Shown piece after piece: positions 43,238 through 46,905 of a DNA stretch of 64,000 bases. Source of the stretch: Caenorhabditis elegans (lineage: Eukaryota; Nematoda; Chromadorea; Rhabditida; Rhabditidae); contig NC_003283.11 in the NCBI RefSeq assembly GCF_000002985.6, forward strand, positions 8,060,001 to 8,124,000. Direction: 5' to 3'. Under the pieces are notes generated by a model. The model was not told the origin of the DNA, searched no databases, and saw nothing but the letters and a program-made list of their open reading frames with translations. A program made the translations under genes and the position numbers. Every line of letters starts with the position of its first letter. The stretch's first letter is position 1.

Positions 43238-46200
43238 ATGCCAAACTTTAGTCATTTTCAGATGATGTTGCTCGATTTTCAACAAACCTATGCACATGTT
43301 ACCTTCGGTCTTTCCATATTTTCAAATTGTTTATTGCTTTCTTTATTGCTGTTTCGAAGTGACCGAAATCTTGGAAGCTACAAATATTTGATGTTTGCAT
43401 TCTCATTTTTGGGGATTTTCTTCTCAATCGTCGACTTTTTGAATAAGCCGGTTAGTTTATTTTGGACTTTTTAAACGAAACACTGGAAAAATTATTTTAA
43501 TGATTAATTTTTAGAAATATGTATTAATAATATGGTTTTGACTTTTTAAGAGTGAGAACATGTTAAAGATGACTAAAACTGGTTGAGTTGATTAGAAGTG
43601 GTTAAGAAGGCTGATAAGCCGAGAGAAAGTTAAAATTTATTGGAAAATGGCTAAAGGTTTTTGACAAAATATTAAAATTGGTCAAAACGAAGCGAGTTCT
43701 GTGTGAGCTCCTTCTTGATTCACTACGATTTGAGAAGCAGTGAAAACAATGAAATTCCTGAAATGTTGCACATCCTTTTAAAATCTTTTAAAATCACTAC
43801 GCCTGACTTTGACTATTTTTGCACGTTTTTGCGAACAGTTTTTAAAAAGTTCGGACATTGGTTCAATTTTGAGATCTTACTGACAATCAATAAATCCACT
43901 ACACCAGGATTTAAATCTCGACACAGTACTACGTACGTGTATAGAGCTGGCTCAAACTGGAGTTTGCACGAACGTCTTTGATTTTTGGAATACCAAAAAC
44001 CTAGCCCTCCGAATTAAGGCAAAGAGATTTCAAAAAATACTTTTTGCCGCTGAATCTCTTTTTAGAAAACATCCAACGACTCCGTAGACACACCTTCCTA
44101 AATTTAAACTCCTTTCCAAGGTTATGCAAGGCTGCAAAATTTGCAAGTATCCTTTGATCCGTTAAGGATTCCTTCTAACCCAAAATTTCCTCGAGCAGTT
44201 GGTGGAGGAGTACCAAATGCGATAAAAGTCGGAAATTCAAAAAATCGATAGAATTATTCTTGACTTTCTTCTCTCAAATATGTGAAACAGAAAAAATCCG
44301 TCAAGGTTGAGATTTTTATACTAGAACAGTTATGTTATACAGGGACAGTTTTTTATCTTTGTCAGAAAATGTTAGCATACAAATTCCAAACCTGTGATGA
44401 TTATTCAGCAGCTTATTTGTTTTTTCCCACCACTCAGTGCGTGCAAATTTTGAAAATTCAAATTGGAATGGTCTCTGGACAGCAGACAGGTACATACATT
44501 ATGTATTGTTTTTTCTTTGCCTGTTAAAACCTGTCCACGTTGTCAGAGAATACGTTGATTTTAGTTTTATTTTGCATGCCTGCAAATATGAAAACAAAAT
44601 AAACTAAACAATTTTACAAATAGTTGCTCAAAAATTAATCCAAAATTTACGAACATGTCCAACTTTTTGACAAAGATCAAGAACTGTTTTAGTATAAAAT
44701 AGTTGCTCTGGAAAGTAGAACTCACCACCAAAGTTTTATTTATTTCACATTGTCTAAAAATAAAAGTCAAGAATGTATTCATCTACATTTATTTTTGCTC
44801 TTGCCGTTATTGCAATTGCCACTGCTCTCCCTAGTGCTGGAAATATTGGAGTAGGAGGACTACTTGGAGAAACTGATGGAAACATTGGAGATGTACTTGA
44901 TGTAGCCAACGGCCTTGGTAATATAATCGGAGATTCGGAAGGATGCATCTGCGGAATTATTGAAAATCTTCTTGGAGGGGACCAAAATGCAACCAAAGGT
45001 CTTTTGAAAGTTCTTGATTTGAATTTAAACAAGTTGCAAGATGACCTTCTTGGAAATAGCTCTGCTCTTGTTGGTCTTCTAACCAATTTCATTGGAAAAA
45101 TCCCAGAAGAAGTTCTTCCGGAAGTTAAATCTCTTCTTGCAAAAGCAAATGAAATCGAGATTGATGAACTAATTTCGAAACTTAATGAACTTGTTCCACA
45201 AGTGAAGATTGGTGTAAGTTATTTACCAATTCGAACAGAAAGAGCTTGATAAATTTACAGAATCTTCTCAAAAAATTGATTTCCGAAGTGTCAAAACTCA
45301 TTAAAAATCTTCTCAAAAAAGTTGGAAAAATTATCAAAAAAGTGGGAGCCGTCTTTGAAAAGTTGACGAAAATTATTAAAAACACAACCAAAACTATTGA
45401 GGAGAAAAATGAGGAAATTCAAAAATTGAAAGACCAAAACGAAATTGTAAGGTTTTTTTAATGCGATAAGCTGCAATCGTGTGCAAAAATTTCAGGAATT
45501 CAATGTTATAATTTTCATTGTTTCTCAAATTGATGTAGATCTTCAAGTTGAAAATGGAGGAATTGTTCCACCAATCTCTGTTTCAGTTGATCCAATCCCA
45601 ATTAATGCTTAATATTTTAAACGATAATTTATTCTGAGAATAAACATGCATATAATTCATCAATCATTTTAACATTTGAACGCATATCATTTTTTTTTGA
45701 TCCATTAAAAACATTTCAGATGGTGCACATTTTTGGTGGAGCATACTTGGTATTCAGTCTGAACTCTCTTGGCCTTCCTCATTTCCTAGCAAATTGGTTC
45801 AACGGTAATTACATTTACCACAATAAAAATATCAAACGCCATATTACCCATATTTTCAGCACTTAACTGTTCATGTTATGGAATGACAATATCATTATTG
45901 GCTGTTCATTTTATTTATCGATACTTGGCAGTTTGTAGGTACGTTCCTGTTACTGGGCGGGCATGTGTACTTTCTTTTTCAAAAACACTAACCTGTTCCG
46001 TGAACCTTGCAATTCTAAAAATAAGTAACATCATAATTTAATCTGAAATGGTTACAGACCAAATCAAATGAGCTGGTTCATGTGGCCTCATGCAATTGTT
46101 TGGTTTTTGTTTTGCTCCGAAATTTCCTTTGAATGGTGGATTACTGCGGTGTTATTTGCTGGAGAAACTACAAAAATTGATGAACTGATCAAGTAAGTTT

Positions 46201-46905
46201 TGAGTTTAAAGTACAAAAGTTGGTAAATAAGTTTGGACGAATATTTGTAGAGACTCAATGGAAACCAATTACAATTTGACAAAAGGAGAATTTATTTATG
46301 CAGCTTCTCTTTATTATGTGAGTTTTTAGAAAAAAAAACATTTTTTTAGTTAACTTATTTTCAGAAAACTGATGATTCCGGGGCCAAAGCAATTTCATGG
46401 CCTGATATATTGTTTGCAGTCAATGTGGTCAAGCTTATTGTCAGTAATATATAAATTTTTTAATCTAATGCAAAAAAATTGAGCATCTGATTTTGAAAAA
46501 CGCATTTTTCAGAGTATCTGCATGATCATTGTTTTATTTTGCGGAATTTCAACATTTCGAAAACTTCGAACACTTCGTCATTATTCGAAACGAACGACAA
46601 ATCTTCAAAATCAACTTTTCAAAGCTCTAGTGACTCAAACCATTATTCCAGTCGTCACAATGTTCATACCTGCAGCTGTTATGATGTTAGCTCCGTTGTT
46701 TGAAGTAACTCTAGGATCTTACGAAGTTCTGGTTATGCCAGTAATAACAACATATCCGTGTGTTGATCCAATAGTTGTCATATTCTTTGTAAAAGATTAC
46801 CGACAAGCAATATGGCAGACGATTCGATGCAAAAGATGTCTCTTTAGCAGAAGCCGATACTCTCTTCGTGGAACTGCTGTGTCATTTATAACCGAGGCGT
46901 CATGA
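43238..46905 (+). CDS. str-family chemoreceptor (odr-10-like), 348 aa, hosts a nested gene
   Basis: Exons are 43238-43450, 45720-45804, 45860-45938, 46058-46192, 46251-46317, 46365-46439 and 46513-46905; total 1047 nt in frame. It is closer to classical str/odr-10 than the other receptors here: RNLGSYKYLMFAFSF after TM1, RYLAVCR after TM3, KRTTNLQNQLFKALVTQTII before TM6, MFIPAAVMMLAP and YPCVDPIVVIFFVKDYR in TM7. TM1-TM2 are on exon 1, which is 2269 bp from exon 2. That intron contains an entire same-strand gene (44773-45612). If exon 1 is not joined, exons 2-7, which begin ATGGTGCAC, would encode a receptor lacking TM1-TM2. Odorant GPCR by family. Confidence 0.85.
44693..44699 (+). promoter_or_regulatory. 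TATA-like box of the nested gene
   Basis: TATAAAA lies 74 nt upstream of the nested gene's ATG, which allows a start of transcription about 30 nt downstream of the box. This supports the nested gene having its own promoter. Confidence 0.4.
44773..45612 (+). CDS. nested secreted protein of unknown function, 247 aa
   Basis: Three exons (44773-45213, 45261-45446, 45496-45612) with canonical GTAAG donors and CAG acceptors, all in phase 0; 744 nt. The start MYSSTFIFALAVIAIATALP is a signal peptide. The mature protein has an acidic, Gly/Leu-rich N-terminal half with a CIC motif (C58, C60) and one possible N-glycosylation site near N93. Exon 2 encodes a 62-residue, strongly Lys-rich, amphipathic helix-like segment (for example IKNLLKKVGKIIKKVG). 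A short hydrophobic/acidic end follows (VDPIPINA). I recognise no domain. Phase-0 exons match protein segments of different charge. It lies wholly inside intron 1 of a str gene on the same strand. Extracellular or vesicular location is inferred from the signal peptide only. Confidence 0.8.
45639..45644 (+). terminator. poly(A) signal of nested gene
   Basis: AATAAA lies 27 nt after the nested stop and 75 nt before the host's exon 2 at 45720. Its position inside a host intron could terminate host transcripts early. Confidence 0.7.

Follow-up and report, generated by a model that had tools for sequence, protein, structure and literature searches.

The window analysed here is a stretch of 64,000 nucleotides of the Caenorhabditis elegans genome (chromosome V, NC_003283.11, positions 8,060,001 to 8,124,000 of the forward strand), and coordinates are those of the window unless a chromosome or contig is named. 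An STR receptor gene occupies 43238-46905 of the plus strand and comprises seven exons with GT-AG introns, encoding 348 amino acids with no internal stops. Wholly inside its first intron, and on the same strand, lies a second gene (44773-45612) of three exons, with introns of 47 and 49 nt and a product of 247 amino acids, likewise with no internal stops. The features of the two genes were as follows.

43238..43450, plus strand: host exon 1, with the N-terminus, TM1, and TM2 (PF10326 2-57) and the splice donor GTTAGT
43451..45719, plus strand: host intron 1, 2,269 nt, phase 0, at a family-common intron site
44773..45213, plus strand: nested exon 1, with a hydrophobic, signal peptide-like start
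45261..45446, plus strand: nested exon 2, from the gene model
45496..45612, plus strand: nested exon 3 including the stop, from the gene model
45639..45644, plus strand: AATAAA of the nested gene, a sequence motif
45720..45804, plus strand: host exon 2, whose first codon is ATG (Met in two close relatives too)
45860..45938, plus strand: host exon 3, from the gene model
46058..46192, plus strand: host exon 4, from the gene model
46251..46317, plus strand: host exon 5, from the gene model
46365..46439, plus strand: host exon 6, from the gene model
46513..46905, plus strand: host exon 7 including the stop, from the gene model

The spliced host gene matched PF10326 (7TM_GPCR_Str) from position 2 to 306 of 307 with 334.6 bits, which corresponds to a full-length family match. 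Exon 1 alone covered positions 2-57 and exons 2-7 alone covered 58-306; as there is neither gap nor overlap in the family positions across 43450|45720, the host junction is seamless. Intron 1 begins with GT directly after a Pro codon and ends with TTTCAG, the last base of which lies 75 nt beyond the end of the nested gene's AATAAA. The first-pass annotation had described a complete same-strand three-exon gene with its own TATA-like box and poly(A) signal in intron 1 of a str receptor, with the AATAAA 75 nt upstream of host exon 2, and both points were borne out by the gene models and the matches to PF10326 and PF02520. A host-protein match just before exon 2 (contig positions 8105573-8105806) was considered as a second exon-1 relic and was taken instead as an extension of the exon-2 match. 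Within the modelled host exon 1, TTTTCAG stands immediately 5' of ATGATG (43255-43267), 24 nt past the first ATG; the true host start may be the ATGATG at 43262 if this TTTTCAG serves as a spliced-leader acceptor. An acceptor-like AG was also seen 7 nt upstream of the starts of two relatives (L047 and L048).

The position of intron 1 was compared across the family using 42 distinct STR exon-1 ends. GT followed directly after the same Pro codon in 32 (the host included), reading continued through the site in nine, and one was ambiguous; these calls were made from sequence, not transcripts, and one GT was judged coding by hand. Sampling was by similarity and not random, taking in the window and those loci that best matched the Pfam model or the host; three of 66 model matches were left out for ending short of the site, and a locus that recurred was counted once. 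With introns 1 and 2 taken together, the non-coding excess between the intron site and the closest TM3 match came to 2,321 nt in the host; 30 further intron-bearing genes had a TM3 match downstream, and their excess was 40-782 nt. Because the site is shared widely in the family and the excess elsewhere is small, host intron 1 is old, and only its content is unusual. The residue after Pro in the nine intronless genes was F, M, M, Q, F, K, K, V, and L, and the two genes bearing M are close relatives of the host at V:17.67 Mb. The ATG that opens host exon 2 had been put forward as a sign of a start codon; since Met stands at the same residue in two closer relatives lacking the intron, and many family members have an intron at this site, it is an ordinary codon.

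The host is the sole plus-strand STR exon-1 match in the window, and ten more matches on the minus strand (about 2000-38400) form a receptor cluster. One relative in the window (L044, about 27200) has neither a donor nor open coding after the Pro codon and meets a stop within 15 codons; it is perhaps a pseudogene or has a shifted donor. A DNA search with the intron part 43451-44772, with simple repeats and very common words skipped, returned only the self-match, and a transposon origin of the upstream intron was dropped on this result.

The nested protein matched PF02520 (SXP/RAL-2, Ani s 5-like), which we take to be the former DUF148, with 68.9 bits against a curated cut-off of 29.3, and its N-terminus is hydrophobic and signal peptide-like as judged from the translation alone. 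Eight genes of this genome are closest to it, four of them at III:13.398-13.403 Mb and the other four at V:0.890-0.895 Mb; they form four divergent minus/plus pairs whose starts lie 430-611 bp apart. Base identity over aligned bases was 89-94% in the chromosome III cluster, 92-96% in the chromosome V cluster, and 71-79% between clusters; recent duplication, or gene conversion between the mirror-image arms, would be expected to give such high likeness within clusters. Compared with six of the eight paralogs, the nested protein showed 40-45% identity, a dN of 0.46-0.51, and a dS of 1.00-1.25 by a simple counting method; III_a was left out for its deletion, and III_d was left out for its first donor (GTGAGT), which lay outside the search pattern.

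The host of one chromosome III pair is an HSP70 gene, which carries the pair within an intron; once joined, the exons on either side cover PF00012 379-547 unbroken. This intron (L050:1123-3368; III:13396500-13404500) measures 2,246 nt, and the AATAAA of its same-strand member ends 76 nt before the host acceptor, compared with 2,269 nt and 75 nt in the str host. In the minus-strand member, about 150 nt are deleted, among them the donor and the last part of exon 1, and a second SXP/RAL-2 pair lies downstream of the HSP70 host. The pairs at V:0.89 Mb look intergenic by eye, as the left-hand exon starts with ATG and points away from them, and thus two of the five units are intronic. The antisense arm is the broken one in both intronic units (two of four intronic arms), while no break was seen in the six other arms, counting III_d, which is outside the modelled set, and V_c, which continues 13 codons beyond the usual stop; the cases are too few for the pattern to count. 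Paralog likeness stops some 25 nt past the AATAAA (by eye), leaving about 50 nt of host intron, and the near-equal spacing of 75 and 76 nt may simply arise from landing in short introns. The HSP70 host is probably F11F1.1, with some of F11F1.4/.5/.8, an assignment made from clone names, HSP70 identity, and a glycine-rich description and not read from annotation. According to the available part of the source, three DUF148 genes of clone F11F1 belong to a class induced at least 13-fold by dauer preconditioning (PMC3853187).

Sequence elements shared with these paralogs were found upstream of the nested gene.

44455..44489, plus strand: promoter element 1, which recurs in the promoters of four paralog pairs
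44621..44640, plus strand: promoter element 2 TAGTTGCTCAAAAATTAATC, collinear with element 1
44693..44700, plus strand: TATA box TATAAAAT, which starts 80 nt before the nested ATG

TATA[AT]A occurs within the last 200 nt before the ATG in all nine subfamily genes and at 78-91 nt in seven of them (the nested gene and six of eight paralogs). Element 1 was 82.9% identical over 35 nt to III_a/III_b and 81.8% over 33 nt to V_a and V_c/V_d; the match to III_c/III_d was weaker (75.7%, 23.8 bits), and the slice of V_b ended before that place. The chromosome III promoters (III_a, III_d orientation) have the two elements in the same order and almost equally spaced, at 166 nt here versus 169 nt in III_a. 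By BLAST, the elements scored at best 33.7 and 32.8 bits, above the shuffle 95% value of 29.2, but the best of 300 shuffles reached 35.6, which exceeds either element alone and was therefore counted against our preferred explanation. As for the start context, TTTCAG, a possible leader acceptor, stands just before AATG in five of the eight paralogs, and the nested gene and the decayed arm described below both have GTCAAG in its place.

Given that the eight relatives form divergent minus/plus pairs, the intron 5' of the nested gene was searched for a minus-strand partner. A decayed opposite-strand copy of the nested gene makes up much of the first 0.9 kb of host intron 1, and the first-pass annotation had missed it.

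43487..44385, minus strand: decayed divergent sister arm (pseudogene), with best pieces at 43717-43756, 43740-43900, and 44060-44390 and a soft end at 43487

A nine-gene DNA model gave three collinear minus-strand matches in 43677-44369, and this chain was reached by none of 200 shuffles and none of 117 other, overlapping window segments. A paralog-only model, from which the nested gene was omitted, did not find the arm, with 27 of 200 shuffles and nine of 117 windows scoring equally; the signal requires the nested gene in the model, and thus the arm could be a later local inverted duplication. Local alignment of the nested gene with the reverse-complemented upstream intron scored 267.5. The highest score among 500 shuffles was 174, that among 292 other window segments, which overlap and come from both strands, was 188, and the same-orientation control gave 134.5. 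When the alignment was divided into segments, which were picked after the whole-arm alignment had been seen, none of 1000 shuffles matched the observed score for the promoter/start, the 5' part of exon 1, or intron 1 with exon 2. The likeness of exon 3/3'UTR was weaker (8/1000), and the 3' part of exon 1 had no likeness in the arm (602/1000). The shuffled sequences came from a first-order Markov model and were not exact dinucleotide shuffles. An independent inverted-repeat search returned 12 pairs, including 44308-44368/44664-44724, 44256-44296/44734-44774, and 43717-43756/45502-45541. The start-homologous site of the arm has no ATG, and its longest open stretch is 43 codons; at the protein level, searching the upstream intron for the arm gave best E-values of 0.018-0.07 (1,050-nt target), which is unconvincing by itself.

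Starting from the anatomy, the intact reading frames, the conserved intron site, the shared promoter elements, and the decayed arm, we infer how the locus arose and how, when, and where its genes are expressed. The most economical reading is that the old and then short intron 1 of the str gene probably took up a divergent SXP/RAL-2 (DUF148-type) pair, its two halves mirroring each other around a shared central promoter of about 0.4-0.6 kb. The nested gene keeps two short introns like its paralogs, together with promoter elements, so it arrived as DNA; a retrocopy was rejected on the two introns, present as in the six modelled paralogs, and the retained elements. The arm antisense to the receptor would then have decayed to a pseudogene, while the arm on the receptor strand stayed intact. 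The insertion had been thought plausibly recent; the identity of only 40-45% to the modelled paralogs and the decay of the sister arm in the same intron leave this without support, although neither dates the insertion directly. The nested gene is probably autonomous and stress-responsive: it would be transcribed from its own TATA promoter and end at its own poly(A) site, using promoter elements in common with paralogs that are probably induced by dehydration in dauer larvae. The receptor would be expressed in different cells, presumably sensory neurons, under a promoter of its own, and ordinary cis-splicing would remove the 2.27-kb intron to yield the full seven-helix protein. As the nested gene appears self-sufficient and the receptor equipped for normal splicing, separate expression of the two is our best guess, and we consider the account as a whole likely.

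Several other explanations were weighed against this account. The left arm may have arisen later, when the nested gene was duplicated in inverted orientation within the intron, instead of being half of an inserted pair, as the arm is closer to the nested gene than to the paralogs and the two have AAAGTCAAGAAT in common at the start; the other units, however, are divergent pairs in four of four cases, the element at 44455-44489 lies between the arms as it does there, and likeness inside the other clusters is also high (89-96%), which leaves this origin unlikely while still deserving some weight. The active nested gene and its poly(A) signal might instead cut the receptor transcript early and turn the receptor off under stress, as at H13/Mcts2. 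The same-strand layout and the 75-nt spacing would suit such interference, and the available parts of two papers lend it precedent: in a mouse host/nested locus, nested transcription drives host intronic polyadenylation (PMC13309782), and same-strand overlaps are under-represented and counter-selected in the five animals compared, the worm included (PMC2330155). Against it, host and nested gene are both intact and nearly identical geometry is found in the chromosome III HSP70 intron, and we regard interference as a real but rather improbable possibility. We know of no co-expression of the receptor and the nested gene. A more elaborate possibility, which we rate as quite improbable, is that the pair is a recurrent intron-landing cassette, found in two unrelated hosts with the same-strand member surviving 75-76 nt before the acceptor and the antisense member breaking both times, whose transcription under stress would act as a switch that cuts off the host transcript or restarts it in truncated form.

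The two remaining alternatives concern the receptor itself. Read-through from the nested gene could be trans-spliced at 45719|45720 and translated from the ATG of exon 2, giving a receptor without TM1-TM2. SL2 operons of C. elegans have a short gap from AATAAA to TTTCAG on the same strand, as here, and this operon-like spacing, together with TTTCAG|ATG, had been offered as evidence for trans-splicing. In an SL2-type operon, the downstream gene starts after the gap, whereas here the exon after the gap is internal to a gene that starts upstream, with exon 1 supplying PF10326 2-57. The 75-nt gap has no match to UAYYUU, the Ur-type motif, although this is a weak test, as the 76-nt HSP70 gap has one; the TTTCAG is the expected cis acceptor of the host, the ATG is the Met codon shared with two close relatives, and the product would lose two helices encoded by exon 1. 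A partial precedent comes from ceh-10/polq-1, where, in the available text, an opposite-strand nested gene induces a short host transcript (PMC12274878). Nothing in the str sequence calls for such a trans-spliced start, the acceptor and ATG being explicable by ordinary receptor anatomy, and we hold it to be very unlikely. Hardly credible is the reading of exon 1 as a stray receptor fragment and of the downstream receptor as a separate gene, which the large gap and the intervening gene might suggest; the Pfam positions run on from exon 1 to the rest, the phase is 0, and the intron site is a common one.

Separate expression of an inserted gene and its host, the reading preferred here, can be set beside known systems. 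The HSP70 locus (III 13.40 Mb) resembles the str locus in having a same-subfamily divergent pair in one host intron with a damaged antisense arm, and differs in its unrelated host and in that this arm carries one deletion of about 150 nt and not full decay. The mouse H13/Mcts2 locus differs in being imprinted and mammalian, and Mcts2 is a retrogene, whereas the nested gene here retains introns and promoter elements. The likeness, as far as the available part of the source goes, lies in a gene nested in a host with host intronic polyadenylation at issue (PMC13309782). The available part of the ceh-10/polq-1 study likewise describes a C. elegans gene in a host intron that is able to influence host transcription, but ceh-10 lies on the opposite strand and was tested experimentally (PMC12274878). 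The same text counts 567 opposite-strand nested pairs in the worm, amounting to 5% of protein-coding genes (PMC12274878). Among the literature matches listed, no title or abstract opening described a DUF148 gene lying within F11F1.1 or a str receptor, and the available text of PMC2997010 and PMC11405683 held nothing bearing on the nested-gene question.

Nested genes are a known arrangement, and the str locus is a good test case that is not new in kind. What is new is the decayed sister arm, the same layout and promoter elements in four other pairs, and the twin in an HSP70 intron on chromosome III. Same-strand nested genes are expected to clash with their hosts via early polyadenylation, and one nested family in two unrelated hosts with near-equal acceptor spacing makes tolerance versus interference testable. 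If the shared promoter behaves as proposed, dehydration of dauer larvae would turn the nested gene on.
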